Positions 36,803 through 57,867 of a stretch of DNA of 64,000 nt are shown piece by piece (within the stretch, counting starts at the first letter, position 1; every line of letters begins with the position of its first letter). Position numbers and translations under genes: made by a program. This DNA is from Acidobacteriota bacterium (GTDB lineage: Bacteria; Acidobacteriota; Terriglobia; Terriglobales; Acidobacteriaceae): assembly GCA_021816455.1 (NCBI GenBank), contig JAKAXU010000014.1:1-64000 (forward strand), written 5' to 3'. A model generated the notes under the pieces. It was not told the origin of the DNA. It searched no databases and saw only the letters and a list, made by a program, of their open reading frames with translations.

Positions 36803-37798
36803 TTACGCTGCGTCCGTTGTTGCTTCTTTGCTCTGATGGGTTCCAGCTTGCACAGCGATCATGCCAAATTGAGACGCACTTATCGTCTGAGAACGGTGGA
36901 TTGTGTTGATAATGGAAAGAGGTCGATTACGTACTTCGTCATAAACACGTCCAATATACTCTCCGAGCACGCCGAGGGATAGAAGCAGAAGACCTCCTAC
37001 AAGAAACACAGTAGCTGCTATACCAAATCCGGCCGCACTCATCGAACTCTTAGAAAGCAGCATACAAAGCGCCAGCAACCCAGCCATAAAGCTCGCGAAA
37101 ATAAAGAATGCGAAACTGAGTCGTAATGGTTTGTAACTGAAGCTGGTGATTGCGTCCATAGCATACTTAATCCGACTAACAAAGGAAAGCTTTCCTTCGC
37201 CGGCCATCCGGTCCTGACGATCATAAAATATAACCTTATTTCGATAGCCGACCCAAGCTCGCAGCCCTGGAAGATACCGGTTTTTTTCTTCCATTTCATT
37301 GATGGAGTCAATGGTTTTGCGACTCATCAGACTGAATATTCCAGCGTTGAGAGGGATCGGGTAGTCGGAGAGAGTGCCTAGCACACGATAGAAGAGTGGG
37401 AATAGCTTAGCCAGTATCTTGCGTCGTTCCTGGCGACTCCTTCTTACCGCGACTACAACTTCGGCACCATCCCGCCACGCTTCGATCAATTCGGGCAAAA
37501 CTTCTGGAGGATCCTGAAAATCGCCGTCCATAAGGATCACCGCATCGCCATGAGCTGTTTTGAGGCCGGCAGAAATGGCACCCATGTGTCCCCAGTTGCG
37601 GGATAGTTCAACCACCACAACATGTGGATCGAGTTGCTGCAATCCTCTGAGGAGTTCGAGAGAAGAATCACTAGAACCATCGTTGACATACACTACTTCC
37701 CACTGTGTTTGAGCGATTTCCATTGCTTCTGCAACTGCCTCGTGGAATCGCGCAATCAGTTCCTCTTCGTTATAGATTGGTACGACCACTGAGATCAT
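36803..37798 (-). CDS. GtrB/DPM1-like family 2 glycosyltransferase
   Basis: The 331-residue protein has a GT-A domain (ISVVVPIYNEEELI, VNDGSSDSSLELL, metal-binding ILMDGDFQDPP) and two C-terminal membrane segments (about residues 225-250 and 260-285), the layout of GtrB/ArnC-type enzymes that move a sugar from a nucleotide donor to undecaprenyl phosphate on the cytoplasmic face. AGGAG lies nine bases before the ATG at 37798. It is the last gene of a five-gene minus-strand group whose first gene is a GT-C-like membrane protein, which could use the lipid-linked sugar on the outer face. About 105 bases separate it from the gene before it. Confidence 0.92.
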   Translation of the reverse strand: MISVVVPIYNEEELIARFHEAVAEAMEIAQTQWEVVYVNDGSSDSSLELLRGLQQLDPHVVVVELSRNWGHMGAISAGLKTAHGDAVILMDGDFQDPPEVLPELIEAWRDGAEVVVAVRRSRQERRKILAKLFPLFYRVLGTLSDYPIPLNAGIFSLMSRKTIDSINEMEEKNRYLPGLRAWVGYRNKVIFYDRQDRMAGEGKLSFVSRIKYAMDAITSFSYKPLRLSFAFFIFASFMAGLLALCMLLSKSSMSAAGFGIAATVFLVGGLLLLSLGVLGEYIGRVYDEVRNRPLSIINTIHRSQTISASQFGMIAVQAGTHQSKEATTDAA

Positions 37799-37903
37799 AG
37801 TCAAAACTCCTGCATTCAGCATTCTGTTGCGATCATGAATTTCTTTATCTTCGTTATTTTCCGGTTCAGCACTTCATGCTTCTTCTGATTTATGGTGAAC
37901 GCA

Positions 37904-38407: not shown

Positions 38408-39273
38408 CTTTTCCATTCAATCTGGTTTCCCAGGACAATTCCACTCGCGACGGAGATTGCTGCGCCGTTTATGCTGGGCATCTCCACCTCTGCAAATCCG
38501 CGTTTGATCGGGACATCGACGGTCCATAGAGTGCCGTGATAGCTCTCCGTGAAGGTGACAATTGTTCCGTCTGTTACGGGGTTGCCTCTGCAGTCGTATA
38601 CCGTCTCTGTGGCTAGCTGAATCTGCTGACCTGACTGCTGAGCACTCATCTTTAATCCGCACGGGTCACCTGGGACCTGTTGTACCAGACGCGTTTCGGA
38701 TACATCGCCCATTCGCGCCACGAATCTATCGGTCCCCTGCAGAGCTGTGGAGTCCATTCCGGTCCATGCAGCGCCATCATGGGTTAGCAAAACTTTAGTC
38801 TGCATACTGCCGCCCGGACTCGAAAGCTCGAAGGAAACAAGCGCAGGTGTGTAGATCAGATTGTGATACGCATCGAAGACATAAACGGCGCCGGTGATGC
38901 CGCCCTTCAGGTCAACTGGAAGACGTGAAGGTTTCGCAAGAAAGCTCAGTTCAGCAGGTTGACTGGAGGGCACAATATCGAAGGTGCCACTTTTTTTTTC
39001 GGACCCTGCTACTAGAACTGCCAGATAATGTCCAGAATTGGAAAGCGATGCGCTTTGAAAAAAAATCATTTCTCCCAATTGCACATCGCGCTTCAGAACC
39101 TGTCCTGGACCTATGATGTACAGTGTCGCTTTTCCGTTTCCGCTGCTTTGAATCGAGAACGAATTGCCGGCTTTGAAAACTCTTGGGAAAGTCATGTTCA
39201 GTCCTTGCGCCAGAGCCAGTTGCATCGTTACGACGGCCAGACTGATGATTAAGAACAACTGACGGAGTCTCAC
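38404..39273 (-). CDS. Exported Ig-like-domain protein, function unknown
   Basis: The 289-residue protein has a signal peptide (LFLIISLAVVTMQLALAQ) and two or three beta-sandwich-like domains. One part (PSRLPVDLKGGITGAVYVFD, LVSFELSSPGG) and the C-terminal part (ATETVYDCRGNPVTDGTIVTF) follow the pattern of Big_1/invasin-type Ig domains. GTG is the start, six bases after GGAGG, and it overlaps the previous stop (GTGA). It might act as a periplasmic accessory of the neighbouring GT-C/GtrB enzymes, by inference from the operon only. Confidence 0.78.
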   Translation of the reverse strand: MRLRQLFLIISLAVVTMQLALAQGLNMTFPRVFKAGNSFSIQSSGNGKATLYIIGPGQVLKRDVQLGEMIFFQSASLSNSGHYLAVLVAGSEKKSGTFDIVPSSQPAELSFLAKPSRLPVDLKGGITGAVYVFDAYHNLIYTPALVSFELSSPGGSMQTKVLLTHDGAAWTGMDSTALQGTDRFVARMGDVSETRLVQQVPGDPCGLKMSAQQSGQQIQLATETVYDCRGNPVTDGTIVTFTESYHGTLWTVDVPIKRGFAEVEMPSINGAAISVASGIVLGNQIEWKR

Positions 39274-40400
39274 TGGTAGCCTCCAAAACTATAGGTCGCA
39301 ACGACTGTACGTTGACTACTTATCTTTTTCGAGAGGTCTTCAGGAATATGAATCTCGAACGGTACTGGAGCCTGCGGCAAAAGTGCGTGATCGAGATACT
39401 TGTCTGCAACCCAGACAACTTGGCCGGCACTATCGTAGAAAGTGGCGAGCACATGCGCGACGTTCACGATCTGTCCGCTTTGATTCGCTAGTTGGCCAGT
39501 CAAGGAGGAATCTGGAGATGGATGCAACTGCTCGTTCTCTATCTCGATAACGGGATCCGCTGAGGCAGCAATAAGCGCGGACAAAGGCGTCATTCGAATG
39601 CTTTCGACATCGGACAACTGCACGTCTGGAAACCGAATTAGAAACGGAGTCACCTGCTTTGGCAGCAGAAGGTGGGATATCTTGTCAAAGCTTCCTTCGG
39701 TCGCGATCACAGACTGGTGCTTTGATAGCAATGTCGCAGTGACCGACACGTACGCCGGAACAACATCTTCGTTTATTAATTCTCCGAGTACCATCATCCC
39801 TTCTGCTCGTTCTACAGGATGCACGTCCACAATGCGGACATGAGGCGATTCCACATCCTGTGCTCCCCAATCATCTTCAGAACCCCGGTAGATCACATCC
39901 CAACGTAGATAATTAACCGGGATGATCTGTGGTGGTACTGAGGGATCTTTGACGATCTGCCACTCCGGTTCCCAACGGTCTCCGTTTCTTACCACATGCA
40001 CGCGACGTGTAGTTACGGATGCGCCTACAATTGTCGACCAATGCAATTTCAGCAGAACATCTGCTTCTTTGGCTGAGGCATGGATTGGCAGTACTTCAAA
40101 GCTGTTCAGAGTGGCGTAGGTAAGCAAGCCCGGGGAGTATCCCTTCAGGTCATGTACAAATTCAGGCTCTGTGAACTCTGCCTTGTTGGCGAAACTGGAG
40201 TACGCCTTTTCCCACGCTTGGTCGCGGATGTCATTGCCAAGATTTTCAACTACCGCCTCCGGAGTTGAAGTCGAGCTTCTCAGACTCTCCCCGCCGACAT
40301 AGGCAACTGCGGATGGCGACGGCCACACAGTACCTACCACGACGAGCACAATAGTTACAGCTGCGAGAAGCAAGGCAAATATGCGTCCCTGGCTCACCAT
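39270..40400 (-). CDS. Membrane-anchored periplasmic protein with NTF2-like and FxLYD-like domains
   Basis: The 376-residue product has an uncleaved signal or anchor (about residues 8-27), an NTF2-like region (TPEAVVENLGNDIRDQAWEKAY to WEPEWQIVKD) and two related C-terminal segments that look like FxLYD/Ig repeats (GELINEDVVPAYVSVTATL and GQLANQSGQIVNVAHVLATF). No enzyme motif was found. GAGG precedes the ATG by five bases. It overlaps the upstream membrane protein gene by seven bases and the downstream Ig-protein gene by four. Confidence 0.78.
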   Translation of the reverse strand: MVSQGRIFALLLAAVTIVLVVVGTVWPSPSAVAYVGGESLRSSTSTPEAVVENLGNDIRDQAWEKAYSSFANKAEFTEPEFVHDLKGYSPGLLTYATLNSFEVLPIHASAKEADVLLKLHWSTIVGASVTTRRVHVVRNGDRWEPEWQIVKDPSVPPQIIPVNYLRWDVIYRGSEDDWGAQDVESPHVRIVDVHPVERAEGMMVLGELINEDVVPAYVSVTATLLSKHQSVIATEGSFDKISHLLLPKQVTPFLIRFPDVQLSDVESIRMTPLSALIAASADPVIEIENEQLHPSPDSSLTGQLANQSGQIVNVAHVLATFYDSAGQVVWVADKYLDHALLPQAPVPFEIHIPEDLSKKISSQRTVVATYSFGGYQ

Positions 40401-43610: not shown

Positions 43611-44070
43611 AAAAGCTCTGTCATCAACTGAGTAACCTGTTCTTCAGGAAATACAGGGTTATCTGCGTGCATGGTTCATAAATGGTTTTCCACCTGGATC
43701 GATAGTTGCGATGGCACCTTCAGGAGCAAGATGTGCATTTCTTTGACCAGCTACGAGTGATTGTCGTCTGAGTCCTTGGTGCGGTCAATATTGAACAGGT
43801 TTTTCAGGAGCGAGAGCGTAATGTCGGGAAGACAAGACATTCAATGGAGACTGCCCATGAGCTCATCTTCACACGACGACCTATATTTCATGGAAAATCC
43901 TGACATCTGTGGTTTCCTTTTCGGTATTCCGCCGACAAGCAGCCTGAGCCGGTTGTAAGGCGCGATATGCACTGTAGGGTAGTACTGCCGACAACACAAA
44001 CCTCTTTGGATGGCAACCAACATGGCGCACGTTTCTATACGGTAAACCCGCTCAGATTGTGCCTCCTAAT
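43611..44070. other. Intergenic region upstream of the TPR exporter gene
   Basis: These 460 bases hold no supportable gene; a 65-codon frame at 43761-43958 lacks a ribosome-binding site and resembles nothing I know. An imperfect AACCTGT/ACAGGGTT pairing near 43633-43662 may end the crp-like transcript, and the remainder is presumably the promoter region of the exporter operon. Confidence 0.35.
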
Positions 44071-47000
44071 ATGACTCTACGTTGGTGCCTTGTGATTGTG
44101 CGACTTGGAATCTCGATTTCTGCTTTGGTAGCTTCGATCGTCGCATCAGTTTACGTCGTCAGGGCTCAGACGTACGCTGTGGGGTCTGCTTCGCCTGAAA
44201 GCTCGCAGTCTAAAACAGGAAGCAGCATGCCTTCAGATAAATCGCTCGGTTGGGGATCGAATATTCAGAATGCGCGCTTAGCGCGCGCCGCAGAACAGGC
44301 CCTGCAGCATGGCGACAAGGCGCTCGCGCTTGACTACGCTCAACGTGCTGCGCAAGCTACTCCAAATGATCTTCGGCTATGGTTTCTGCTTGGCTATGCG
44401 GCTCGGCTGGATGGAAAGCAGTCACTCTCAGTGAATGCCTATTCTCGCGGTCTGCAACTTAACCCATCATCAGTAGAAGGACTTTCTGGCCTTGCGCAGA
44501 CATTCAGCATGATGGGCCGAAACGAAGATGCTGTGCGCCTTCTCAAGCAGGTTGTCACGGCTGATCCTAGACGTAGAGATGACGTGTTACTTCTTGGAGA
44601 CCTGAACATGAGATTGGGGGATTACACAGGCGCGCTGGATTGGCTTGGAAGGGCAGAGCGCATGCAGCCGGACGCACGATCGGAGTTGCTGATGGCGCTC
44701 TCGTATCAGCACCTGAAGCAAATGAACAAAGCAAATCATTACCTTGAAATGGCGAAACGCAGAGATCCCAATAATCCGGAAGTACAGCGCACAATGGCAG
44801 GGTATTACCGCGAGGTTGGAAATTATCCCGAAGCTATTTCTGCACTGAAGTTAATTCAAAATCCCAGTCGTGATGTAATTGCCGAACTTGCCTATACTTA
44901 CCAGCTTACAGGTGATTTCGATGATTCCGCGAGACTGTACGCGCAGGTAGCCAATGCAGATATCAGAAATCTCGACTGGCAGTTCGCTGCGGCTCAAGCC
45001 GAGTTGGCTGCCGGTTCCATCGATAAGGCGAATTTATTTCTTACTCATGCTGCTGCACTCGATGCAAACAATTATCGTTTGCACGCAATCCGTGGAGACA
45101 TCGCAAAACTGCAAGATCGCGAAAGGGATGCTGTCCTGGAGTACAGCGCTGCCTTAGCATCCCTGCCTGCAAGTCCCACAGAAGGCTCGCTGTATGGCAT
45201 ACAGCTGCACATGGATCTAATGGAACTTTATCGTGACATGAACTACACTGCCGATTCTAATCGCCAGCTTCAGATTGCACGGTCAGAAATAAAAGTGCTA
45301 GATGAGAACAGACCAAGGACAGGGCAGTACCTTCATCTTCGAGCACTGATCAAGATGAATGGCGGCGACCTCCAAGGCGCGCTTGCTGACATCGTAAAAG
45401 AACGCGAAATCGACGCGCACGATAGAAACGGTTTGCAGCTAAACGGAGATATCCTCATAAGACTTGGGCGCACCGATGAAGCCATAAGCATATACAAGCA
45501 AATACTTGCGGATGACCCTGCCAACCGTTTCGCTCTCACCTCACTTGGCTACGCTCTTCGAGCAGCGGGGCATAACCTGGAGGCAGAAAAATGCTTCTTG
45601 AGCCTTGCAAAAGCAAATCCTTCGCTATATATTCCCTACCTTGCGCTTGGAGATATTTACACCGCAGAAGGAGAATTCGCAAATGCTCAGGTTTCCTACG
45701 GAAAGGCCTATGCCCTGGATCCTCAGAAGCCGCAGATACTGGCTGGTGGAATGAATGCTGCGATTGAAGATCATAACCTCGATTTGGCTGCACTGTGGCT
45801 CAGTCGTGTAACAAATAAAATGCATGACAATCCACAAATTCTTCAGGAACAGGAAAGATATCTAAGTTTTAAAGGCCTGTATCAGGAGTCAGCTTCCATA
45901 GGATGGAAGGCAATCAAAGTATTGCCTGGAAATAGAGATGTAGTTATATATCTCGGCTATGATCTTCTTCACCTTGGCGAGTATACGAAACTACTTATCC
46001 TGACATCGAAATATCTAACTATCTTCCCAAATGAGCCCGACATACCGCTTCTTGAGGGCTATGTCCACAAGCATCAAGGGAAGTTAAAACAGGCACAGCT
46101 GGACTTTACTGAAGCTCTGAAGCGCGATCCTGGAATTGTTACGGGGTATGTAAATCTCGGATACATATCAAATGACATGCACCAGCCCAAGGCGGCAGCA
46201 GAAGATTTTTCTGCAGCTCTCGAGAGAGAACCAGACAATGGTGAGGCACACCTGGGTTTGGCCTACGCAAGCCTTGATCTGCATAAGCCCAAAGCTGCTT
46301 TGCAACAAGCACAATTGGCGGAGCATGCTCTAGGCGATTTGCTGGATATTCACCTGATTCGCGCAACAGCCTATGGGCAAGAGGACATGTTGTCCAAAGC
46401 ATCAGGCGAATACCAGGCTGCCTTAAAGTTCACTCCCAATGATGGCTCGCTTCACTTCGACCTTGGAAATACGTTATATGCAGAGCGGAGGTATCACGAT
46501 GCAATTAGCGAGTTGACTATCGCAAAACACGATTCGCCCGATAACGCGGCTATCTATGCATTGATTGCTCGGTCCTATGCAAATCTCCAGAACCGGGAAA
46601 AAACCCTGAAATATGTCCAACTAGCTGAGATGCATGGCAGGCGCACGTTCGATGCAGTAGCTCACTCTCAATCAGGGGAATGGAGCAACATACTTATCTC
46701 TACTGGAGAGGCTTTAAGTACCCTTGGAGACAAGAGAGCAGCCATAGATCGTTTTCGGCAAGCGCTCGAAATTCCGGGAAGTAATTGGATAACCATTCGC
46801 ATGGCAATTGCTCAGGTTATGGCACAGCAAGACCATTCGGAAGATGCTGAGAGACAAATTGCTCTGGCCATGATGGAAGCAAAGGCAGGTGAAACAGTCC
46901 CACCCTCGGCTAGCCAATACATCATGGCAGCAGACGTTTTTCGTACCCTGCATGATTATGAACTATCACAGTCCTATCTTCAACGAGCAAAAGCAGCAGG

Positions 47001-48318
47001 CGCGCCTGATGCGGAAGTGCGTATCGGACTGGCCAATAACTATCTAGCGCTCGGAGACGCGATCCGGGCAGAGGCAGAGCTTGCAGCAATCAGGCTATCT
47101 TCAGATAATTCAGACAATTATCAGTATCTTCTTGCTCAGGCGAACGTGCTTCGACAGCAACACAACGGAGCAGATGCGCTCACTTCTTTTGCGCAGGCCT
47201 CGAATTCAGAAGGCGAAGATCAAATTGCCCAGGAAGCTATGCTGCAGTCTGGTGCCGACGAGGGACTTAGGCTCAATCCGACACTGAGTATCCTCTCTGA
47301 TTTATCGGTTGAACCTATTTATGAAGATACAACTGTCTATGTACTCGACTCCAAGCTAGATGCTTCGTTTGCTGTGCCGATCAACGACACGGCACTTCTC
47401 CCGCCTCCACGTTCATCCATAGAAACACAATCGACCAGTGCATTCCATCTACATATTGATCATATCCCAACTCCGGGGGGATTCTACCAGATACGGAACA
47501 CGATAGGTAAGATATCAGTCCCAAGCACAAACACTATAGTTAATCGCAACACCACTGACAATATATTTAATATTGGATTAAACCCTACAGTGAATCTAGG
47601 TAACAACATTATTACATTTAACGGCGGTATTCAAACAACCATCCGACGCGATTCTGAGTCTCCCGTCGCGATGAATCAGAACCTATTCCGAATGTTTGCC
47701 TATATGTCCACAAGTGCTTTCTTAAATGCCGTATCTGTAACCGGTTATGTGATCAGGGAAGCGGGACCTTTTACTGAAAGCAATCTGCATTCGCTGGCAC
47801 TGACCGGTGCGCTTGATTTTCGTGTCGGCGCACCCTGGGGGAAGACTGCGATGGTAGCTGGATGGGGTGCGAACGACCAGAAATTCTCACCTGTAAGTTA
47901 TGAAGATTACTACACGTCATCCTATATTGGACTCGAGCACCGGTTTTCAGAGCGTCTGAATATTAGAGCTTTGATTGAAGACCTTCGCGCATGGCGGATC
48001 GTAGGAGCTGCTTCAGGTAATGCTCAGAATGTACGTCCTGCCGGAATGGTCGACTTTAATCCAACACGCAACTGGGGCATCCACTATGCAACTGCGTATT
48101 CCAGCACAAGAAGTTTCCACGTGTACGATGCGACGCAGAACGGCGTGTCTATCTCGTATTCGCACGCATTTCACCATATGTATAACGGCGACTCCAAGAA
48201 ACTTATTCTGCAATATCCTGTCCGGTTCTCTGCAGGTTTCCAAGAAGAGGATTTTTTTAATTTTAAAGGTGGTCACACTCAGCAACTCAGGCCATATGTT
48301 CAACTCACTCTATTCTGA
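44071..48318 (+). CDS. TPR/beta-barrel outer-membrane polysaccharide exporter (PelB/PgaA/BcsC-like)
   Basis: The 1415-residue protein has an N-terminal signal or anchor (MTLRWCLVIVRLGISISALV, cleavage near VRAQ) followed by about 30 TPR-like helical repeats from about residue 65 to 1060 (for example ALDYAQRAAQATPNDLRLWF, AISIYKQILADDPANRFALT, QLDFTEALKRDPGIVTGYVN). The last 330 residues are beta-barrel-like, ending in an outer-membrane-type final strand (LRPYVQLTLF). This layout is known from BcsC, PgaA and PelB, which pass cellulose, PNAG and Pel through the outer membrane. No good ribosome-binding site was found: GTG at 44059 and ATG at 44071 are both open. A GT4 gene follows after 12 bases. 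Confidence 0.88.
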   Translation: MTLRWCLVIVRLGISISALVASIVASVYVVRAQTYAVGSASPESSQSKTGSSMPSDKSLGWGSNIQNARLARAAEQALQHGDKALALDYAQRAAQATPNDLRLWFLLGYAARLDGKQSLSVNAYSRGLQLNPSSVEGLSGLAQTFSMMGRNEDAVRLLKQVVTADPRRRDDVLLLGDLNMRLGDYTGALDWLGRAERMQPDARSELLMALSYQHLKQMNKANHYLEMAKRRDPNNPEVQRTMAGYYREVGNYPEAISALKLIQNPSRDVIAELAYTYQLTGDFDDSARLYAQVANADIRNLDWQFAAAQAELAAGSIDKANLFLTHAAALDANNYRLHAIRGDIAKLQDRERDAVLEYSAALASLPASPTEGSLYGIQLHMDLMELYRDMNYTADSNRQLQIARSEIKVLDENRPRTGQYLHLRALIKMNGGDLQGALADIVKEREIDAHDRNGLQLNGDILIRLGRTDEAISIYKQILADDPANRFALTSLGYALRAAGHNLEAEKCFLSLAKANPSLYIPYLALGDIYTAEGEFANAQVSYGKAYALDPQKPQILAGGMNAAIEDHNLDLAALWLSRVTNKMHDNPQILQEQERYLSFKGLYQESASIGWKAIKVLPGNRDVVIYLGYDLLHLGEYTKLLILTSKYLTIFPNEPDIPLLEGYVHKHQGKLKQAQLDFTEALKRDPGIVTGYVNLGYISNDMHQPKAAAEDFSAALEREPDNGEAHLGLAYASLDLHKPKAALQQAQLAEHALGDLLDIHLIRATAYGQEDMLSKASGEYQAALKFTPNDGSLHFDLGNTLYAERRYHDAISELTIAKHDSPDNAAIYALIARSYANLQNREKTLKYVQLAEMHGRRTFDAVAHSQSGEWSNILISTGEALSTLGDKRAAIDRFRQALEIPGSNWITIRMAIAQVMAQQDHSEDAERQIALAMMEAKAGETVPPSASQYIMAADVFRTLHDYELSQSYLQRAKAAGAPDAEVRIGLANNYLALGDAIRAEAELAAIRLSSDNSDNYQYLLAQANVLRQQHNGADALTSFAQASNSEGEDQIAQEAMLQSGADEGLRLNPTLSILSDLSVEPIYEDTTVYVLDSKLDASFAVPINDTALLPPPRSSIETQSTSAFHLHIDHIPTPGGFYQIRNTIGKISVPSTNTIVNRNTTDNIFNIGLNPTVNLGNNIITFNGGIQTTIRRDSESPVAMNQNLFRMFAYMSTSAFLNAVSVTGYVIREAGPFTESNLHSLALTGALDFRVGAPWGKTAMVAGWGANDQKFSPVSYEDYYTSSYIGLEHRFSERLNIRALIEDLRAWRIVGAASGNAQNVRPAGMVDFNPTRNWGIHYATAYSSTRSFHVYDATQNGVSISYSHAFHHMYNGDSKKLILQYPVRFSAGFQEEDFFNFKGGHTQQLRPYVQLTLF

Positions 48319-48330
48319 AGGCGGAATTTG

Positions 48331-49731
48331 ATGAAGATATGTCTAGTTGCAACATTCCCTCCTAGTGGACGCCAGTTGAATGAGTATGCATATCACATTG
48401 CGCGTGAATTACAGCGCAATCCTGATATTGAATTGACAATTCTAGCTGATGAATTGGAAGACTATGACTTTGCTACTGACGAGAATGGTAATTCTATGAA
48501 GCATAATCAGCTCAAAGAGCTGCCCGGATTTAACCTGATCCACTGTTGGAGATTCGGCAGGATGTCAACTCCCATACGTCTGTTGAACACTATCCGGAAG
48601 CTGAAGCCAGACGTCGTATGGTTCAACCTGGTGTTCTCAAGCTTTGCTACACCAGAGAATCCTTTTGCTGCATTTCTTGGGCTTTCGGTACCTGCACTTA
48701 CGCGTGCCGCGGGGTTCTTCACGCATGTCACCTTGCACCATATTCTCGAGCATGTCGACTTTTCTGCTGCGGGAGTCCGGCAAGATAAAGTATTTCGGAT
48801 GGGAGCGAACCTGGCAACCAGAGCACTGCTGAAAGCACATTCAGTGTCGGTACTGCTTCCCGCATATCGTACCACTCTCATTACAAAATATGTTGCACAG
48901 AATGTGTTGTTGGGGACTCATGGAACATTTGCATCCAATCCATCTCCACCAGACTTTTCTAAGCGCGGTAATCCCGATCTATGTATTCTGGCAATAGGGC
49001 ACTGGGGAACTTATAAGCGGTTAGAAACGCTTATGACTGCTTTCCCCAGAATTCTCGAAAGATCTCCTAACGCAAGGCTGATCGTTGCCGGAGCTAACCA
49101 TCACACAAAGGCCGGATATTGGGAGTCAATACGCGACGCTATGCCGGCAGGTCTCCCAATAGAATTCCGAGGGTATGTACCAGAGGAGGCTATCCCGGAA
49201 TTATTCCAAAAAGCTTCAGTTCTGGTGATGCCCTATGACTCAGCAACCGGATCAAGTGGGCCAGCTCATCAAGCGTGTCAATATGGCGTTCCAGTTGTGT
49301 GTGCCGACATCAAAGACTTTCGTGAAATGGCGACAAGTGAAGGCATGGCAATACGCTTTTATCAAAAATATGATGCGGCCGACCTTGCTGAGCAGGTCTC
49401 TACCATTCTCGAGTCACAAGTCATGCTACAACAAATGGCAGTACATAACTATTCTGCCGGCCTTGATATGACTCTATCGAGTGTCGTCAAGAACTATCTT
49501 CGTTGGTTCGAACTAAACAAATGTAAAAACACTATAAGCAATGACGGTGATAGTGCATCACTAAAAAAGTTATGGTTAAGGATCTTTCAAGCCAAACAAA
49601 TATCCCCTGGTTGGAATCTACAGTCGGCCCTGTTGGGTGGCGCAGGAGGAAGGACAGTCGGTCGAAAAGACGAAGAAATAGCTGAAATCCATGTCACCTT
49701 CGACTCAGTCGCCGGTCCATCTGATGGGTGA
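48331..49731 (+). CDS. Family 4 (GT-B) glycosyltransferase
   Basis: The 466-residue protein has the two Rossmann domains of GT4 enzymes. The N-terminus (MKICLVATFPPSGRQLNEYA) is the usual acceptor domain; the C-terminal domain shows CILAIGHWGTYKRLETLM (the K/R pair near the donor site) and the E-x7-E-like region MPYDSATGSSGPAHQACQYGVPVV. There are no membrane segments. It starts 12 bases after the TPR/barrel gene, so polymer synthesis and export are likely coupled, as PelF and PelB are in Pel systems; similarity to PelF itself was not established. About 60 residues at the C-terminus are of unclear function. Confidence 0.9.
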   Translation: MKICLVATFPPSGRQLNEYAYHIARELQRNPDIELTILADELEDYDFATDENGNSMKHNQLKELPGFNLIHCWRFGRMSTPIRLLNTIRKLKPDVVWFNLVFSSFATPENPFAAFLGLSVPALTRAAGFFTHVTLHHILEHVDFSAAGVRQDKVFRMGANLATRALLKAHSVSVLLPAYRTTLITKYVAQNVLLGTHGTFASNPSPPDFSKRGNPDLCILAIGHWGTYKRLETLMTAFPRILERSPNARLIVAGANHHTKAGYWESIRDAMPAGLPIEFRGYVPEEAIPELFQKASVLVMPYDSATGSSGPAHQACQYGVPVVCADIKDFREMATSEGMAIRFYQKYDAADLAEQVSTILESQVMLQQMAVHNYSAGLDMTLSSVVKNYLRWFELNKCKNTISNDGDSASLKKLWLRIFQAKQISPGWNLQSALLGGAGGRTVGRKDEEIAEIHVTFDSVAGPSDG

Positions 49732-49914
49732 GGGGGAAAGCAAAAGAATCATTTTAGATCGTCGGAGTCCAATTGTAAATATTCGCGAGGGGTCCAAAAT
49801 TCCATTTCGTGCATCCTGAAGTCTTCGATGTGCCGTCTTCGGTTTGCTGCGTATTGTTCATCTGCGCCAGACTTATCGGTCTACCACAAATCAGATGATA
49901 AGAAGGAGAGTGCC

Positions 49915-52848
49915 GTGACTAATGATTATGTTGACGGATATCTTCATCGGATATTACAGTGGCGTTTTTTTATGTATTTCCTTTCTCTGTTGATTTCTGG
50001 CTGCGGTATCCACTTCAATACCCCGTCTCCAACGGTCGAAATTACAGCCAATCCTGCTTCAATCAGCTCGGGTAATTCTTCCACTCTGATTGTGACTGCA
50101 ACCAATGCGAATCAGATCACGATACGCGGATCCGACGGAACAACCTATACTCTCCTGTCAAGCGGCGGAAGCCAAAGCGTGACACCACTGTCAACTACGA
50201 CTTACACGGCCGTCGCAAAAGGAGCGGGAGGAAGTGCGTCAGCCACGGCATCTATTACGGTAGTACCTGCTACTGCTCCTATAGTAACTATAGAAGCCAA
50301 GCCTTCTTCTATTAGCGTGGGTGGTTCATCTGTTCTCTCCATAGCAGCGACGAGCGCAACTCAGTTGACGGTGACTGGAACTGATGGGAGCGCGTATACA
50401 TTCCAGCCCAGCGGCGGAACCCAGACTGTGAGCCCGGTAGCGACAACAACTTATACTGCGGTCGCCGCCGGTCCTGGTGGAACGAGCTCAGCGAGTGCAA
50501 CGCTCACGGTAATACCCATTCCTGCGCCGACTGTTTCGATAACTGCCATCCCGACCTCGATTACTGCAGGAAGTTCTTCCATTCTGACAATCACTGCTTT
50601 CGGTGCGACACAGGTAAAGGTTATTGGATCCGACGGAAGTACATACGTTCTCCAGCCAAGCGGTGGAACACAAGCTGTAAGCCCGACAAAAACTACAATA
50701 TATACGGCAATCGCTACTGGCGTCGGCGGGAATGTTTCAGCTGCTACGACTGTGGTAGTCACTCCAATTCCATTACCCACAGTGATCATTACTGCAAATC
50801 CAGCTTCGATTACTATGGATAGCTCGTCCACTCTGAATGTGGCTGCAGTTGATGCAACGCAAGTGACGATAAGCGGAACCGACGGCAGTACATATTCCTT
50901 GCAATCGAGCGGTGGAACGCAGCTAGTGAGTCCAACCGCGACTACGACATATACGGCAGTTGCTATCGGCAATGGAGGCAAGTCGTCTGCAAGTACAACT
51001 GTGACTGTAACACCGAATCCTACTCCGAATGTCAGTATTACGGCTAACCCAACTTCAATCATTTCAGGTAATTCATCTATATTAAGCGTGACAGCGTCTA
51101 ATGCCACTCAGGTGAGCGTAATTGGATCTGATGGCAGCACGTATGTCTTACAGCCAAACGGAGGAACGCAATCCGTGAGCCCGACTGCAACCGCGAGCTA
51201 TACGGCTACTGCAACCGGTCTTGGTGGAACTATCTCGGCTAGTACGACCGTATCAGTGACGGCAGCAGCTAGCATTCAATCGATCGATCATGTCGTATTC
51301 ATGTTGCAAGAAAATCACACATTCGACAATTACTTCGGAATGCTGAATCCTTACCGGAAATCAAACGGATGGAACATAGGCGATGATGGAATCGACTATG
51401 AAGTGGATGGCATTGATGACAAGCTTTCCATAATCAGCAACGTTGATGATGAGGGAACAACCTACTCACTTTTCAAGCTCAAAAGCACATGTGTCGATGA
51501 CGAAACATCAGCATGGCTGTCAAGCTATGGATCAGTCAACCGTTACAACTTTCTCACCACGCGTCCTATCGTGATGGATGGCTTCGTCCACAACGCTGAG
51601 GGATATGCAAAGAGCTGCGCTATCCCTGGAGCCGCAGGAAGTTGTTCCGGAACTTATACCGATCTAACAGGGGAAAGATCTATGGGGTATTATGATCAAC
51701 ACTTTCTCAATTATTACTACTTTATGGCATCGCAGTTTGCTGTGTCCGATCGATGGTTTTCCCCGATATCGACCAAGAGCATTGGTAATCGCATCGCCAC
51801 TTTCACTGGAGGAACGACTCAAGGCTTGGTGAATGATCCGGGAAGCAACGACCATCTTTCTCAGCTTGACATTCCGAACATCTTCCAGGAACTTGACCAA
51901 GCGAAGGTATCATGGAAGATATACTACACTGTGACCGAGGGATTCTGCTTGACTGACAGTGCTTGTACAGGTGGTCCAAACGCGGCATATCCCGCAACAA
52001 CATTTTCTAGTCTCACATATTCATATCAGTATCTGTATGAAAATCCAACTGGAGTAGCCTGTACTCCACCCACGCAGGCATCGAATGTAGTTGGCGATTC
52101 GACGAACTCTTTTTGCATTGATCCTGACCATATTGCTCCGCTTTCTGTCTATTTTACGGATCTCACCAACAGCACGCTACCAAGCTTCGCTTTCATTGAG
52201 GCCGGTTACGCTAACAATGACGAGCATCCAGGTTCCGGCCAATCTATTCTTATGGGACAGGCGCAAGTGGCCAATATCGTTAATTCGTTTATGTCGAGTC
52301 CCGAGTGGATGGATTCTATATTCTTCCTTAGTTATGACGAAGGAGGAGGACCATATGACCATGTTCCGCCGGTTCCCGGGCACTCAAACGATAACTCTGA
52401 CGCTTCTCTCGGAACAATCCCGGATATCTCGCAGATCGCGGTGAATCCTGATACGTACGGCCCATGCGTGCCACCTGGTGGAGTACCTACATTGCATTGC
52501 GATCTGGCTACGAATGACCCTGGCGCGAATGCCGGAGATGCTCCGTCCGTCCAGGGATTTGCAGCACAACTTGGCTTTCGCCTGCCGAATATCATCATCT
52601 CGCCTTTCACCCGCAGGCATTATGTATCGCACACGCCAATGGATCACACTGCCGTAATTAAGTTCGTTGAAAACCGCTTTATTGGTAGTGCAGCGCACCT
52701 TACAGCTCGTGATGCCGCGCAGCCAAACCTGCTGGAGTTCTTTGACTTCAACAACATTCCATGGATCACACCGCCCACGCCGCCGAATCCGGTAACGGCA
52801 ACGTCGCTGGGGTATGACCCCTGTACTCCTGCAAATATGGGACCATGA
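49915..52848 (+). CDS. Lipoprotein phosphoesterase with five Ig-like repeats (acid phosphatase/phospholipase C family)
   Basis: The 977-residue product has a lipobox (LSLLISGCG, Cys near residue 32), so it should be lipid-anchored. Five tandem repeats of about 80 residues follow (each around NPASIxxxxSSTLxVxATNATQV, SGTDGSTYTLQPSGGTQ and TTTYTAVA), together about residues 40-455. The C-terminal 520 residues are a phosphoesterase domain of the AcpA/PlcC type: IDHVVFMLQENHTFDNYFG, IEAGYANNDEHPG and IFFLSYDEGGGPYDHVPP with metal-binding Glu, Asn, Asp and His. The start is a GTG seven bases after AAGGAG; a plain ATG upstream lacks one. It stands alone, 183 bases after the GT4 gene. Confidence 0.9.
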   Translation: MTNDYVDGYLHRILQWRFFMYFLSLLISGCGIHFNTPSPTVEITANPASISSGNSSTLIVTATNANQITIRGSDGTTYTLLSSGGSQSVTPLSTTTYTAVAKGAGGSASATASITVVPATAPIVTIEAKPSSISVGGSSVLSIAATSATQLTVTGTDGSAYTFQPSGGTQTVSPVATTTYTAVAAGPGGTSSASATLTVIPIPAPTVSITAIPTSITAGSSSILTITAFGATQVKVIGSDGSTYVLQPSGGTQAVSPTKTTIYTAIATGVGGNVSAATTVVVTPIPLPTVIITANPASITMDSSSTLNVAAVDATQVTISGTDGSTYSLQSSGGTQLVSPTATTTYTAVAIGNGGKSSASTTVTVTPNPTPNVSITANPTSIISGNSSILSVTASNATQVSVIGSDGSTYVLQPNGGTQSVSPTATASYTATATGLGGTISASTTVSVTAAASIQSIDHVVFMLQENHTFDNYFGMLNPYRKSNGWNIGDDGIDYEVDGIDDKLSIISNVDDEGTTYSLFKLKSTCVDDETSAWLSSYGSVNRYNFLTTRPIVMDGFVHNAEGYAKSCAIPGAAGSCSGTYTDLTGERSMGYYDQHFLNYYYFMASQFAVSDRWFSPISTKSIGNRIATFTGGTTQGLVNDPGSNDHLSQLDIPNIFQELDQAKVSWKIYYTVTEGFCLTDSACTGGPNAAYPATTFSSLTYSYQYLYENPTGVACTPPTQASNVVGDSTNSFCIDPDHIAPLSVYFTDLTNSTLPSFAFIEAGYANNDEHPGSGQSILMGQAQVANIVNSFMSSPEWMDSIFFLSYDEGGGPYDHVPPVPGHSNDNSDASLGTIPDISQIAVNPDTYGPCVPPGGVPTLHCDLATNDPGANAGDAPSVQGFAAQLGFRLPNIIISPFTRRHYVSHTPMDHTAVIKFVENRFIGSAAHLTARDAAQPNLLEFFDFNNIPWITPPTPPNPVTATSLGYDPCTPANMGP

Positions 52849-52967: not shown

Positions 52968-53645
52968 TTACAGAGTAGTACTGAATGAAAGCTCTTTGCG
53001 TACGTAGCATAAGACGGTTCGATGAACGTCCTCGATCGACATCGGGCAGATGACAGTTAATCCGCCAATCAAATCATTCAGAGCCAGATACGATCGGCGA
53101 CTGGTGTACAAAAACTCGATAGGGTACTCAGGCTTGCGCGCGCGCGCCATCACAGGATCTGCATCGAGCAAATAACTGATATGAGGCTTAGGAATCAGCT
53201 TCATAATTAGCCATACATATACGCGAATAGCTGGATTGTTCAACGAAAGATTTGCAAGTTCATCGTAAATGTATCTGTCAAAAATTATCAGGTCAGCTTT
53301 CGATTGCGTTGCCTTTCTCACGACAAAGCATATTGATACAGCATCGATGGAATATAGGAAAAGACGTACCAACGTCATGATGGATGATCTGACATTCTTG
53401 TCTCGTCGATTGATTGGCGTGGATGGAGTTCCAACTCCTCTGTCGCCCTTAAAGACTGCGTGCCCTACTGCTTCCCGGAATTGCGTCAGTGTTGCAATGT
53501 CATCCCAAAACCTGATTACCAGAACCTGCAGACCATGCTCCTTCATCCGAGTGCAAAGGGCTTCGATCTGGGTGCTCTTCCCGGAACCATCCATGCCTGA
53601 GAAACTTACATAGTTGGCGACACCGCTCTTTGGCTGCATAGTCAT
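52968..53645 (-). CDS. Thymidylate-kinase-like P-loop kinase
   Basis: The 225-residue protein has a P-loop FSGMDGSGKSTQ near the N-terminus, a LID/base-binding Asp-Arg in IIFDRYIYDELANL and a C-terminal helical part. This matches thymidylate-kinase-like proteins, but the length and divergent substrate region (RFWDDIATLTQF) suggest that dTMP is not necessarily its substrate. Relatives of this kind are met in capsule and exopolysaccharide loci, where their role is unclear. GGAG precedes the ATG by seven bases. It is the last of four minus-strand genes with flippase, STAS and tail-anchored protein. Confidence 0.8.
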   Translation of the reverse strand: MTMQPKSGVANYVSFSGMDGSGKSTQIEALCTRMKEHGLQVLVIRFWDDIATLTQFREAVGHAVFKGDRGVGTPSTPINRRDKNVRSSIMTLVRLFLYSIDAVSICFVVRKATQSKADLIIFDRYIYDELANLSLNNPAIRVYVWLIMKLIPKPHISYLLDADPVMARARKPEYPIEFLYTSRRSYLALNDLIGGLTVICPMSIEDVHRTVLCYVRKELSFSTTL

Positions 53646-53685
53646 CGCGTTTCTCCAATAGGTATGGAATTACGTTGTCTCCATG

Positions 53686-54207
53686 TCAATATGGCCGACT
53701 CGGGCTAGCACGAGAAAGTAGTACGACTATTCCAATCGCCGCTGCTGCGCCCACGACCACACCGACCCGGATCAGGATGGAACGCGCGTGGCGCTGTTTT
53801 GCAGGCGCAATGACTGCTCCAGCAGGCCTGGATGCAGCAACGCCAGTGCTCTTTTCAAACGGTCCTACGGCTGTACCGAGAGGTTTGCGTACACTGCACG
53901 GTGGAGGCTGCTCTGCTCCGGACGGCGGCACATTGGACTCTCCACTTTGATCGGCCGACAGCGAATGCACAGGTTCAGGATTGTCAGGATACTCCGCTTC
54001 AGAAGGACTTCTACCTACATCATCCACATTCCAGTCTTGACTATGTGAGTATTGCAGATGGATTTGTGTACAGGGAACCTCTGGCGACTGCTGACGGGTA
54101 GTTGCTTGCAGCGGCGGCGCTGGTGCGGCACCTGCAAATCGTACGGCCATGGTTATCACAAGGCTGCAGACCATCCCCTGTTTGAACCAGCAACGTGATA
54201 AGCTCAT
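53686..54207 (-). CDS. Exported protein with C-terminal membrane anchor, function unknown
   Basis: The 173-residue product has an N-terminal signal peptide (CSLVITMAVRFAGAAPA), a Pro/Ser/Glu-rich, probably disordered middle and one C-terminal membrane segment (GVVVGAAAAIGIVVLLS) ending with a short basic tail (SRASPSRPY). No family was recognised; the layout suggests a protein stretched across the periplasm and held at the inner membrane. It starts eight bases after the STAS gene stop and 40 bases before the kinase start. Confidence 0.65.
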   Translation of the reverse strand: MSLSRCWFKQGMVCSLVITMAVRFAGAAPAPPLQATTRQQSPEVPCTQIHLQYSHSQDWNVDDVGRSPSEAEYPDNPEPVHSLSADQSGESNVPPSGAEQPPPCSVRKPLGTAVGPFEKSTGVAASRPAGAVIAPAKQRHARSILIRVGVVVGAAAAIGIVVLLSRASPSRPY

Positions 54208-54215
54208 CGATAACC

Positions 54216-54785
54216 CTAATCGTTGTCAGGTGGTGCGGGCTGGAAGCCCATCAAGTACGGCTCCGGCAAGTTCGCAGTGGTTCGTGGCGAGCTTACAGGT
54301 AAGGAGTTGTTGGAAATTGTATAAGGAGAATGTTGACGAAAACTGCTTGCCGCTTCCTCAGCTGTGTCAAAAATTTCAAAGAGTCGGTCTGCCGCGCTGA
54401 GAGTCATCATCACTCTCGCTTCTGCAGAGATTGCTGCCAGCTTGACATCGCCATTACGCTTTATTGCCTCCTCCAAGCAACACAGAAGTATGAGGATCGA
54501 AGTCCTATCCATATGGCTTACCTTGGAGCAATCGAAGACGATTGAAGGACGATTAACATTCATGCAACTCTCCAACTCTTTGAAGAAGAGCCGCCCGCCG
54601 TTCTCATTCAATCTCTCCGGTACCTGCTTCACAACCACAGTGCATGCTCGAGTTGCCATGTCTACATTTTGTCTTAGGCTCAAGGCAGAACTCTGTTCAA
54701 AAGGAATCACATCTACTTGCAAGGGATAATGCACGACATCTTTCCGCGTTGCATCTTGCCGGATTCTTTGTTTTGTGCGACTCAT
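54216..54785 (-). CDS. STAS-domain protein (anti-anti-sigma-factor-like)
   Basis: The 189-residue protein has a STAS domain at about residues 44-150: VVVKQVPERLNENGGRLFFKELE, then RPSIVFDCSKVSHMDRTSILILLCCLEEAI-type wording with the acceptor loop at HMDRTS (a Thr/Ser where SpoIIAA has the phosphorylated Ser), then VKLAAISAEARVMMTLSAAD. N- and C-terminal extensions are low in complexity. STAS proteins switch partners by phosphorylation. No anti-sigma kinase is nearby. The ATG overlaps the flippase stop (ATGA), so the protein is produced together with the flippase and may regulate polysaccharide export. Confidence 0.88.
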   Translation of the reverse strand: MSRTKQRIRQDATRKDVVHYPLQVDVIPFEQSSALSLRQNVDMATRACTVVVKQVPERLNENGGRLFFKELESCMNVNRPSIVFDCSKVSHMDRTSILILLCCLEEAIKRNGDVKLAAISAEARVMMTLSAADRLFEIFDTAEEAASSFRQHSPYTISNNSLPVSSPRTTANLPEPYLMGFQPAPPDND

Positions 54786-56746
54786 AGAAGGCGCGCAAGT
54801 TCATTCTCGGGATTCCGTCGTGCAAGTGCCAGCATATTTCTCGCATATCGGAATAGCGTGACAAAGTTTGTTTTGTACCAACAGCACTCGCTCATACGAG
54901 GCGATAGGCCACATAAAAAGCGGAGCTTCTCCAGCCTGTATGGAGATACAGATATTGCTGCGACAAGACGATGATTGCCATCCAGAACCGTAAGTGGTTC
55001 GCTAACGGTAAGGCCGATCAGAATCACAGAGCTAACCCCGGGATTATCCGAAATTAGCTGTTCGCCAATGTCAGAGATCTTTGATAAGAATGGGCGATCG
55101 ACAAGATGTTGGCGGATGCGAAGTCCTTCGGCTATTTCGGTGATCGAGAAATCACCGTGCGCAAGCTTTCTCCACTGGGCCCTGGGAAAGACCCTGATCT
55201 GGCTGACATCCGATTGCTTGACCTCCACCTCATACCATTCCGTGTCGGTTGGAATTTCCTTCCACAGTGCAAGATGCCGAATAAACAGCAGGGCACGTCG
55301 CTTCGCATTCTCTTCTGCATTTCCAAGATCAGGGTTGCTAACAACATTTTGAAGAATCGTCTGATACTCTCTGAAGGCGGGAACGTGGAAATCGCTCTTC
55401 AAGAATTCAGCGATGACTTCGTCTTCCGATACGCGTCGGATTAACCTTACAGACCCTTTAACTTCTGTTGCTAACAGTTCGTTCGGATGGCGGAGCAAGT
55501 CGATCACAAACGGAACCGCCACAAAAACGAACAGAAACACCATCAAGATCAGTTGTACAAGGATGACTTCCCGCAAAGACGAATGGAAGCGGATAATGCA
55601 CGCGATCACTATTCCGCTGAAGGCCATCTGAATCCAACTTGTATTCGCAATCTTGTATGACATCTCAAAAGTAATCATAACCACACTGAGAGAGTAGACG
55701 ATCGTCGTAACAGCGTACAACGCAAGAAGATAGGGTAGGTTGTACTTTCCGGATATCTCGAATCCAGGGCCAAAAAGCGTCGCCCATAGCCCTGCAGGTG
55801 CGACACTTAAACCAAGAGCCAAGACAGATCCCGTGCCCAATACCATCAATAGAGAGGTAGCGATGACCTTTAGATCCTTTCTCTCTTCATCTTGAGTGCC
55901 TGCGACGAGCGGAAACATGCTATTTACCACCGCAGAAGAAAACGCAAAGATTACCCGGCCAACCATCGCTACGGCCGCATAAATCCCAGCTTCTCTCGCG
56001 ATGAAAAAGTGTTGTACGAGTACGATGTCACAGTTATTGATTAAGACCTGACCGGCGAAAAAAATCATTGCGTGGGATGTTTCGTGAAGAGCATTCAGGA
56101 AGCGAAGAGGACTCGCAGTCCGGCCCGACAACTTCGGTGCAATCGCAAGATAAGCCACTGCAATGGCTGCAGTATTGGCCGCAATCACACCATCGACGCC
56201 CATGCCTGACACAATCAAGAGGAAAGATCCGCCGAGACGAACTGAACCCTCCAAAACAAGATTTGCGGCAAGACGGCGAAATCCGTATGTGCCCTGAATG
56301 TATCCACGCCTTGTTCCGAGTGGGATATAAAAAGTTGCACCTACGGCGAGCAACGCGATGAGAACAGGACTTGACAGATTCAAATACTCTGCAATTGATC
56401 TCTGAAACAGCATCAATAGCAGCCCAATCAGGATGCCGACCGCCCATGCGCCTCGATGGAAACTTCTGTACACTCCTGCCGCCTCTTCAGGAGACTTGTG
56501 TCGTGCTACAGCTTTTGATGACACAATCTGAAAGGAGAGCATTACCGCAGAAATCAAGGTGAGAATGGTGTAAACGACCGTAGCCTGCCCGAACCCTTTT
56601 GGGCCAATGTACCGCGCAACGACAATGTTGTACGTGAGGTTGATTGCAGTCGTCAGACTAGAACCGGAGAGCATTACAATGCTTCCGGAAATAATGCGCG
56701 CTTGTAGCGTTTTTGCCTTTTGTGTCAAATCATTCACCACATTCAT
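54782..56746 (-). CDS. Wzx-like polysaccharide flippase fused to a ParB/sulfiredoxin-like domain
   Basis: The 654-residue protein has 12-14 membrane segments in residues 1-430 with a MATE/Wzx-type start (VMLSGSSLTTAINLTYNIVVARYIGPKGFGQATV), which marks a lipid-linked-sugar translocase. It continues with about 220 soluble residues that normal Wzx proteins (about 420-500) lack. In that tail, TVLDGNHRLVAAI (about residues 586-598) resembles the DGNHR/DGhHR nucleotide-binding motif of ParB and sulfiredoxin folds, preceded by residues compatible with the fold's strands (SVILIGLTVSEPL). Function of the tail is unknown. It is followed by STAS, exported and kinase genes, and is the first gene of that operon. 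Confidence 0.85.
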   Translation of the reverse strand: MNVVNDLTQKAKTLQARIISGSIVMLSGSSLTTAINLTYNIVVARYIGPKGFGQATVVYTILTLISAVMLSFQIVSSKAVARHKSPEEAAGVYRSFHRGAWAVGILIGLLLMLFQRSIAEYLNLSSPVLIALLAVGATFYIPLGTRRGYIQGTYGFRRLAANLVLEGSVRLGGSFLLIVSGMGVDGVIAANTAAIAVAYLAIAPKLSGRTASPLRFLNALHETSHAMIFFAGQVLINNCDIVLVQHFFIAREAGIYAAVAMVGRVIFAFSSAVVNSMFPLVAGTQDEERKDLKVIATSLLMVLGTGSVLALGLSVAPAGLWATLFGPGFEISGKYNLPYLLALYAVTTIVYSLSVVMITFEMSYKIANTSWIQMAFSGIVIACIIRFHSSLREVILVQLILMVFLFVFVAVPFVIDLLRHPNELLATEVKGSVRLIRRVSEDEVIAEFLKSDFHVPAFREYQTILQNVVSNPDLGNAEENAKRRALLFIRHLALWKEIPTDTEWYEVEVKQSDVSQIRVFPRAQWRKLAHGDFSITEIAEGLRIRQHLVDRPFLSKISDIGEQLISDNPGVSSVILIGLTVSEPLTVLDGNHRLVAAISVSPYRLEKLRFLCGLSPRMSECCWYKTNFVTLFRYARNMLALARRNPENELARLL

Positions 56747-56928: not shown

Positions 56929-57867
56929 ATGCTGAATCACGCGTACTCTATATTTCTTCTTTTTCTTCTATTGCCCCACGGATGCTCTAGTCCTGGGTCA
57001 GTTCATGCGTTGCCGCTGAAGTATAGAGCAACGGGAAGTTCACCCGAAGTAATTGCCTTATATGAGGCATGGTTTGGCCATCCCAAGCACATCTCAGTGG
57101 GCTATTCCTCGCAGGATCCGAAAGAGATAAACAGTCAGATTCGCAGGGCGAAAGCAATGGGTATCTCCGCATTCGTGGTCGATTGGTATGGCGACCGAGA
57201 GCCATTCATCGATCGAAGCTATGCCATGATCCAGAAGGTTGCTGCCAAGGATAAATTCCATGTCGCTATGATGTATGACGAAACTGACGAGGAAGAGGGT
57301 GCGACCGACGAAGCTATTGCAGACTTTACGATGTTCTATGACACCTATCTCTCAAAACAAGCGCCTGAGCATCAGGCGTATCTTACCTACCTGGGACGCC
57401 CTGTGATTTTCATTTTCCCCAAAGGTAAGCACACCGACTGGGATAAAGTGCGCAGGCTGGTGAACCAATGGCCCGATCCACCTTGGCTGATCTATGAGAA
57501 CCTTCCTGATTCCTCTTCAGACGTATTCGATGGATACTACGCGTGGATTAACCCCGGGGAAAAGGGATGGACCGCGGATGGCAGCAACTGGGGTGAGCAA
57601 TATCTGAGTGATTTCTACACGACGATGCGGCTAAAGTACGCTGATAAGATTATTATCGGGGGCGCGTGGTCCAGCTTTGACGACAGTAAAGCATCCTGGG
57701 GACTTAATCGGCATATATCCGCGAGATGTGGAAAGACTTTTTCCGATACTTCCAACTTGTGGCGAAAATACTTCTCTGCGGATGATCCTCTGCCATTCAT
57801 AATGATTGAAACATGGAACGACCACGAAGAAGGCACTGCCATTGAAGATGGTATTCCCTCATGCTGA
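56929..57867 (+). CDS. GH99-like lipoprotein, probably ending early
   Basis: The 312-residue product has a lipoprotein signal (FLLFLLLPHGCSS). The mature part matches glycoside-hydrolase family 99-like/WbsX-type proteins: YEAWFGHPKHISVGYSSQDP, ISAFVVDWYGDRE, and the C-terminal ETWNDHEEGTAIE with acidic residues near the expected catalytic site. Relatives continue past this point (a carbohydrate-binding or further strand region follows a Cys); here a stop comes right after GIPSC, so the protein may be trimmed or the gene slightly decayed. No clear ribosome-binding site precedes the ATG. It could trim the polymer made by the surrounding locus. Confidence 0.8.
   Translation: MLNHAYSIFLLFLLLPHGCSSPGSVHALPLKYRATGSSPEVIALYEAWFGHPKHISVGYSSQDPKEINSQIRRAKAMGISAFVVDWYGDREPFIDRSYAMIQKVAAKDKFHVAMMYDETDEEEGATDEAIADFTMFYDTYLSKQAPEHQAYLTYLGRPVIFIFPKGKHTDWDKVRRLVNQWPDPPWLIYENLPDSSSDVFDGYYAWINPGEKGWTADGSNWGEQYLSDFYTTMRLKYADKIIIGGAWSSFDDSKASWGLNRHISARCGKTFSDTSNLWRKYFSADDPLPFIMIETWNDHEEGTAIEDGIPSC

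Follow-up and report, generated by a model that had tools for sequence, protein, structure and literature searches.

A Wzx-type flippase with a predicted ParB/sulfiredoxin-like tail in a recurrent four-gene module of Acidobacteriaceae-type bacteria

The first 64,000 nucleotides of contig JAKAXU010000014.1 (assembly GCA_021816455.1, an Acidobacteriota bacterium of the Acidobacteriaceae), called the window below, contain four closely spaced open reading frames (ORFs) on the minus strand between positions 56746 and 52968. They encode a Wzx-like flippase of the MOP superfamily with an extra soluble C-terminal tail that holds a DGNHR motif, a STAS-domain protein whose start codon overlaps the flippase stop codon as ATGA, a small Pro/Ser-rich protein of 173 residues, and a thymidylate-kinase-like P-loop protein; all four lie at the coordinates given in the initial annotation of this DNA. 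The module is real and widespread, and joins known folds in a combination absent from the literature searched. The best explanation of the whole, to which we give a probability of about one half, is an NTP (nucleoside triphosphate)-binding tail on a lipid-linked-sugar flippase within a glycan-assembly locus. Among the matches listed from open-access literature (titles and beginnings of abstracts), none describes this locus or a flippase combined with a ParB-like domain; the initial annotation likewise knew of no such combination in described systems.

The tail is matched by no Pfam or NCBIfam family at E 0.1, phmmer and hmmsearch against the PDB returned nothing for it, and a viral-contig scan yielded no relative of it. 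Its AlphaFold2 model has a pLDDT of 92.4 and a pTM of 0.88. When 467 chains were aligned to the model with VIA, the first ten rows consisted of six sulfiredoxin (Srx) entries, Noc, two ParB chains and KorB, with Z of 5.3 to 4.0; the best match was the sulfiredoxin 6ky4 (Z 5.3, root mean square deviation 2.8, 87 residues aligned, target of 89 residues). The rows after the tenth include 1vk1 and 4ovb, which we take to share the ParB/Srx fold, together with the free serine kinase 5x0g (row 12, Z 3.6) and Atu1540, and the plainly unrelated hepatitis B virus capsid enters the list at Z 3.2. A ParB/sulfiredoxin-type fold had been proposed for the tail from its motif; modelling of residues 430–654 gave no unrelated fold, Srx/ParB-type chains were the best matches, and the proposal is further backed by retention of GxxR in all aligned tails. 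We regard a ParB/sulfiredoxin-like fold of the tail core as supported, but not proven, by the model. In the same model, helices lie outside the core at tail residues 12–67 and 199–224.

The alignment comprises 69 of the 71 distinct tails, leaving out L022 and L086, the latter truncated. GNHR (tail residues G161, N162, H163 and R164) is invariant in all 69 rows and forms part of a set of 14 invariant columns that also includes F19, R54, P70, W75, R93, W96, S186, M189, C193 and W194. Membership among the sulfiredoxins is not supported: the catalytic Cys of the GGCHR motif is absent, and all 69 tails have Asn in its place, the equivalence being one of motif and not of residue-level superposition. 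GxxR is named the P motif in a 2025 survey of the fold which reports that exchange of the Arg for Ala abolished NTP binding in its binders (PMC12704722). That survey searched with PF02195 (PMC12704722); the tail has no match to this family, and such a search would probably have missed it.

Relatives of the tail also occur by themselves. A distant one of 205 residues with an EGHCR motif (L070:9722-10339) lies on the opposite strand between genes that look murD-like and ftsW-like by eye, and neither this gene nor the other distant stand-alone relatives (L178/L228) has a telling gene context; a search with one distant stand-alone relative gave matches in 3 of 247 genomes, two of them being the fused form. 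Two free paralogues (L031:9561-10583 and L032:9587-10564) sit in a different context that they share; their genomes have the fused form as well (L060 and L063).

The distribution of the module was assessed in 200 genomes from 79 genera of the window genome's own family group. The tail is present in 92 of these genomes and 49 of the genera, the kinase in 90 genomes, and the GT-C-fold membrane protein encoded farther along the window in 96. Tail and kinase are found together in 88 genomes and both are missing from 106, while tail and GT-C protein coincide in 90; the expectation that the four-gene neighbourhood would be shared across genomes was borne out. STAS matches were obtained in 93 genomes, some of them weak and perhaps belonging to general STAS proteins. 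In a phylum-wide sample of 297 genomes the tail profile gave seven matches, of which six, counting that of the window genome, belong to the family and the seventh is distant. A scan of GTDB contigs confirmed 159 relatives, 80 of which were listed; the counts for named loci rest on these 80, which have flanks of up to 10 kb and overlap in part with the 200-genome sample. Their titles are acidobacterial in 79 of 80 cases, from which the description of the family as Acidobacteriaceae-type derives, and all five domains are on the fetched stretch in 61. Isolates with the whole module include Occallatibacter savannae AB23, Acidipila rosea, Acidobacterium sp. S8, strain AB60, and KBS 83/89. A metagenome-assembled genome labelled Rhodanobacteraceae (L156) has the locus in acidobacterial gene order, either through a misbinned contig or through transfer.

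Gene arrangement was compared over 61 stretches (the window and L031–L090), with neighbours counted by protein cluster. The tail is present in 60 of them, and 36 have a compact set, defined as STAS, 173-residue protein and kinase on the same strand at no more than 3.5 kb from the tail. A fused flippase-tail accompanies these partners in 22 of the 36, the order is STAS, flippase, separate tail, 173-residue protein and kinase in 13, and in the remaining one (L090) STAS is fused too. Single ORFs that join flippase, tail and STAS were found at L090:6085-8544 and, on a short contig, at L086:1361-3712. The tail shares the flippase ORF in 48 of the 69 aligned sequences and is a gene of its own in 21; its joining to the flippase is not a product of chance or of a local frameshift, since it recurs in this form and the tail itself in nearly half of the family genomes. 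In a quick tree of the 48 fused and 21 free tails, calculated without bootstrap and without inferring a root, fused forms fall to either side of the midpoint, and no more than two changes between fused and free are needed; an old fusion, later split to give the free tail, may therefore be the history.

The membrane part of the flippase is matched by Polysacc_synt (PF01943) over residues 21–282 with E 6.8e-7 and passes the Pfam cut-off (29.4 bits against 28.2). Hydropathy averaged over 66 homologues has 13 smoothed peaks, which we read as about 12 membrane segments. The most positive flank in these homologues follows the last membrane segment, and a cytosolic tail is therefore favoured. Two flippase-tail copies lie ~18–27 kb apart on one contig in three genomes (L051/L052 in G033, L058/L059 in G195, and L030 in G167).

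The partners were compared in sets of BLAST matches that exceed a length limit, with duplicates removed and the window counted in (53 STAS proteins, 51 kinases and 49 of the 173-residue proteins). The STAS protein aligns to TM1442 with MDRTS over MDSAG. The conserved Asp is followed directly by Arg in the window and by Ser or Thr in 8 of the 53 sequences, so a canonical STAS phospho-switch is unlikely, and the earlier suggestion that the STAS loop is phosphorylated is not supported for the canonical site. The second position after the Asp is Ser or Thr in 13 of 53 sequences including that of the window, where Thr and Ser follow the Arg. The 173-residue protein has no Pfam or NCBIfam match at E 0.1; read by eye, it has a signal-like N-terminus and a C-terminal membrane segment, and its conservation is highest in the last ~65 residues (ASRPAG..IAPAKQRR). 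In the kinase-like protein the P-loop, DRY and RKPEYP motifs are kept, and the P-loop residues (G17, D19, G20, G22, K23, T25), D123-R124 and R170-Y174 are retained by every sequence aligned at those positions (50 or 51 of 51). Identity with the housekeeping dTMP kinase was rejected, because the protein scores 40.5 bits against TIGR00041, less than half the curated cut-off of 83.25, and the genome holds a separate dTMP kinase above the cut-off on another contig.

The module is set in a wider locus (Table 1) that we read as one for glycan assembly, from its recurring glycosyltransferases, GT-C protein, tetratricopeptide repeat (TPR) protein and GH71/99-like neighbours. The adjoining glycosyltransferases fit the flipping of lipid-linked sugars put forward in the initial annotation. 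The GT2 protein also matches the PgfS (E 6.2e-77) and ArnC-type (E 4.6e-47) models, both below their cut-offs. The model of the GT-C protein has 22 PDB matches at E<=1e-3, whose titles name glycosyl- or oligosaccharyltransferases or complexes containing them in 21 cases and a secretory translocon complex in one. The best NCBIfam match of the TPR protein is XrtA/PEP-CTERM PrsT (E 3.1e-50), with PgaA (E 1e-19) and BcsC (E 1.2e-11) among the others, all below cut-off. An NTP-transferase/GlmU-like protein (L038:11730-12920) occurs in 22 of the 61 stretches, often beside STAS, and none was seen in the window.

Table 1. Features of the module and of the wider locus, with the evidence for each and the number of stretches and named GTDB loci that hold the neighbouring genes
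Feature	Position	Strand	Evidence	Stretches (of 61)	Named loci (of 80)
MOP-superfamily (Wzx-like) flippase with C-terminal ParB/Srx-like tail, 654 aa	54782..56746	-	PF01943, hydropathy		
Flippase tail, residues 430-654 (225 residues)	54785..55459	-	AlphaFold2 and VIA		
Predicted ParB/Srx-like core of tail, ~residues 503-615	54902-55240	-	structure comparison		
DGNHR, residues 589-593, candidate P motif (GxxR)	54968..54982	-	invariance over 69 tails		
STAS-domain protein, 189 aa	54216..54785	-	PF01740 E 2.2e-9; TM1442 E 1.2e-4		
Pro/Ser-rich protein, 173 aa	53686..54207	-	homologue conservation		
Thymidylate-kinase-like P-loop protein, 225 aa	52968..53645	-	PF02223 E 6.6e-9		
GT2 glycosyltransferase, polyprenyl-phosphate type	36803..37822	-	PF00535 E 5e-33	15	48
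Conserved protein, 170 aa	37904..38416	-	protein cluster	19	57
Conserved protein, 289 aa	38404..39273	-	protein cluster	26	56
Conserved protein, 376 aa (377-aa cluster)	39270..40400	-	protein cluster	31	55
GT-C-fold membrane protein, 583 aa	40394..42145	-	AlphaFold2 pLDDT 86.9, pTM 0.88	35	50
TPR-rich protein, 1419 aa, possible export protein	44059..48318	+	TPR families to 2.2e-34	31 (10 more as fragments)	37
GT4 glycosyltransferase	48328..49731	+	PF13692 E 6.3e-18	22	10
Phosphoesterase (phospholipase C / acid phosphatase type)	49828..52848	+	PF04185 E 1.2e-57	9	7
GH71/GH99-like protein, divergent from flippase gene	56929..57867	+	PF03659 E 1.4e-6, PF16317 E 8.2e-5, both below cut-off	29	70

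The locus lies in a part of the window (36250–64000) that begins directly past a rimO-like gene, where the GC content drops from ~60% to ~50% at 36.25 kb; the contig ends at 69,084, still inside the low-GC part. In the six same-genus stretches compared, counterparts exist for the ORFs as far as 36.3 kb and for none beyond 36.5 kb, and none of the seven same-genus genomes in the sample holds the tail, kinase or GT-C gene. This leaves two readings, an acquired locus and a chimeric contig, and the finding of the module is independent of which applies.

The predicted fold, the invariance of the motif, co-inheritance, the flippase-tail-STAS fusions and the glycan-type neighbours were computed directly, whereas NTP binding, gating, STAS docking, the substrate of the kinase, and the glycan with its export are inferred in what follows. 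The four genes would form the membrane-flipping module of a glycan-assembly locus in Acidobacteriaceae-type bacteria. The flippase would bring a sugar or oligosaccharide linked to polyprenyl across to the periplasm; there the GT-C enzyme would transfer it to a glycan destined for export, perhaps via the TPR protein. The cytosolic tail, a divergent domain of the predicted fold, would bind a nucleoside triphosphate via GNHR and thereby gate or couple flipping, the STAS protein would dock on the tail as an adaptor without a canonical phospho-switch, and the kinase-like protein may serve the pathway as its own kinase for a nucleotide or small molecule. The tail itself is most likely an NTP-binding gate or docking module on the lipid-linked-sugar flippase. 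That nucleotide binding to a ParB-type domain of its own actually switches the flippase, with STAS as transducer, we consider less likely than not.

Several results weigh against this interpretation. With respect to the fold, the VIA Z for the tail is at most 5.3, below the mark of 8 under which, by the tool's own warning, a match may reflect a common arrangement only, and Foldseek searches with the tail model gave no match at E<=1e-3 in either the PDB or a viral library, although ParB or sulfiredoxin is named in five of the first ten rows of the latter (best E 0.026). The Pfam matches of the 69 tail members do not include PF02195, the best relevant one being DndB in a single member (E 0.032), and hhalign of the tail against 10 ParB sequences picked by motif gave a probability of 0.8% (E 0.066); the resulting low-confidence alignment places DGNHR on the GERR of ParB. 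Since the fold is backed in this way by structure and not by sequence, we do not file the tail under PF02195. In the survey cited above, 11 of 28 purified members of the fold bound an NTP and 17 did not (PMC12704722). The alternation of loop charge in the flippase is clean in the first half only and weaker later. With respect to co-inheritance, 6 of the 200 family genomes have only one of tail and kinase, 6 have the GT-C protein without the tail, and 2 have the tail without the GT-C protein. The full compact set is lacking in 24 of the 60 stretches with a tail: seven are fused cases with no partner on the stretch (L052, L057, L059, L061, L064, L065 and L088), all in genomes that hold the kinase elsewhere, in five the three partners are inverted and lie at a greater distance, and the remaining ones are partial.

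The rival that survives best, which we nevertheless consider unlikely, is that the tail is a ParB/Srx-like scaffold that binds no nucleotide and only docks STAS and cytosolic glycosyltransferases. The tail-STAS fusions are in its favour, as is the failure of 17 of the 28 purified fold members to bind an NTP in vitro (PMC12704722), and the modelled helices on either side of the core could serve as interaction surfaces. A pure scaffold has, however, no obvious need for GNHR, R54, R93, W75, W96 and W194, which are the same in every aligned tail. It is distinctly improbable that the tail is instead an enzyme akin to free serine kinase or sulfiredoxin that transfers phosphate to a partner, a lipid carrier or a small molecule. 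Such an enzyme would agree with the presence of 5x0g and the six sulfiredoxin entries among the top structural matches and with the similarity of DGNHR to the Srx motif GGCHR, but the FPR.QWR region, where SerK has its base, lacks an invariant acidic residue, Asn replaces the Srx Cys, and the gene context suggests no substrate. Less credible again is that the association is a by-product of the descent of a large glycan locus in which tail, STAS and kinase have separate roles. The wider locus is co-inherited, so co-occurrence is no proof of physical coupling, but the module holds together while its order shifts from flippase-tail, STAS to STAS, flippase, tail, and tail-STAS fusions occur. Finally, control of flipping by a phosphorylation-switched STAS protein, as in anti-sigma antagonists and as first proposed, is very improbable given the residues found at the canonical site, despite a clear STAS domain (PF01740, TM1442) and the Thr and Ser that follow the Arg in the window.

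If the tail proves to bind NTP, a cell could link the flipping of its glycan precursors directly to its nucleotide-sugar or energy status, and membrane transport would be added to the roles of the ParB fold. Acidobacteriota are abundant in soil but poorly understood as a phylum, and the locus is also a genetic handle on their surface glycans.

Among known systems, those for Pel, poly-N-acetylglucosamine (PNAG) and cellulose are laid out similarly, with a TPR protein, glycosyltransferases and a glycoside hydrolase. The locus in the window differs from them in its polyprenyl-phosphate-type GT2 and GT-C proteins, and from the PNAG and cellulose systems in that its TPR protein matches PgaA and BcsC below cut-off only; no Pel-named model is among the matches listed from Pfam and NCBIfam, libraries in which the presence of Pel models is unverified. 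The XrtA/PEP-CTERM exopolysaccharide systems are resembled through PrsT by the TPR protein and through the stp2 and stp3 models by the GT4 protein, again below cut-off. The STAS protein shares its domain with SpoIIAA-like antagonists and TM1442 by Pfam and PDB sequence match, but the canonical phospho-acceptor is mostly absent. The kinase-like protein has P-loop, DRY and LID-like motifs in common with dTMP kinase (Tmk), from which its low score against the curated model sets it apart. The predicted core fold and the GxxR motif are shared with the ParB/Noc/Srx/SerK proteins, whereas the tail is without a PF02195 match, is joined to a membrane flippase, and has extra helical N- and C-terminal parts; in the main text of the 2025 survey the words "flippase" and "polysaccharide" do not occur (PMC12704722). 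With Wzx-type MOP flippases the protein shares a flippase domain that passes the PF01943 cut-off, and it differs from them in the extra domain of ~225 residues after the membrane part. The current understanding is that MOP flippases, Wzx and MurJ among them, are coupled to ions or membrane potential, and we know of none with a nucleotide switch. TacF is described as a gatekeeping MOP relative in another sense (PMC13385700). If its tail acts as proposed, the flippase of the window would be gated by nucleotides, in a transporter class for which no use of NTPs is known to us.

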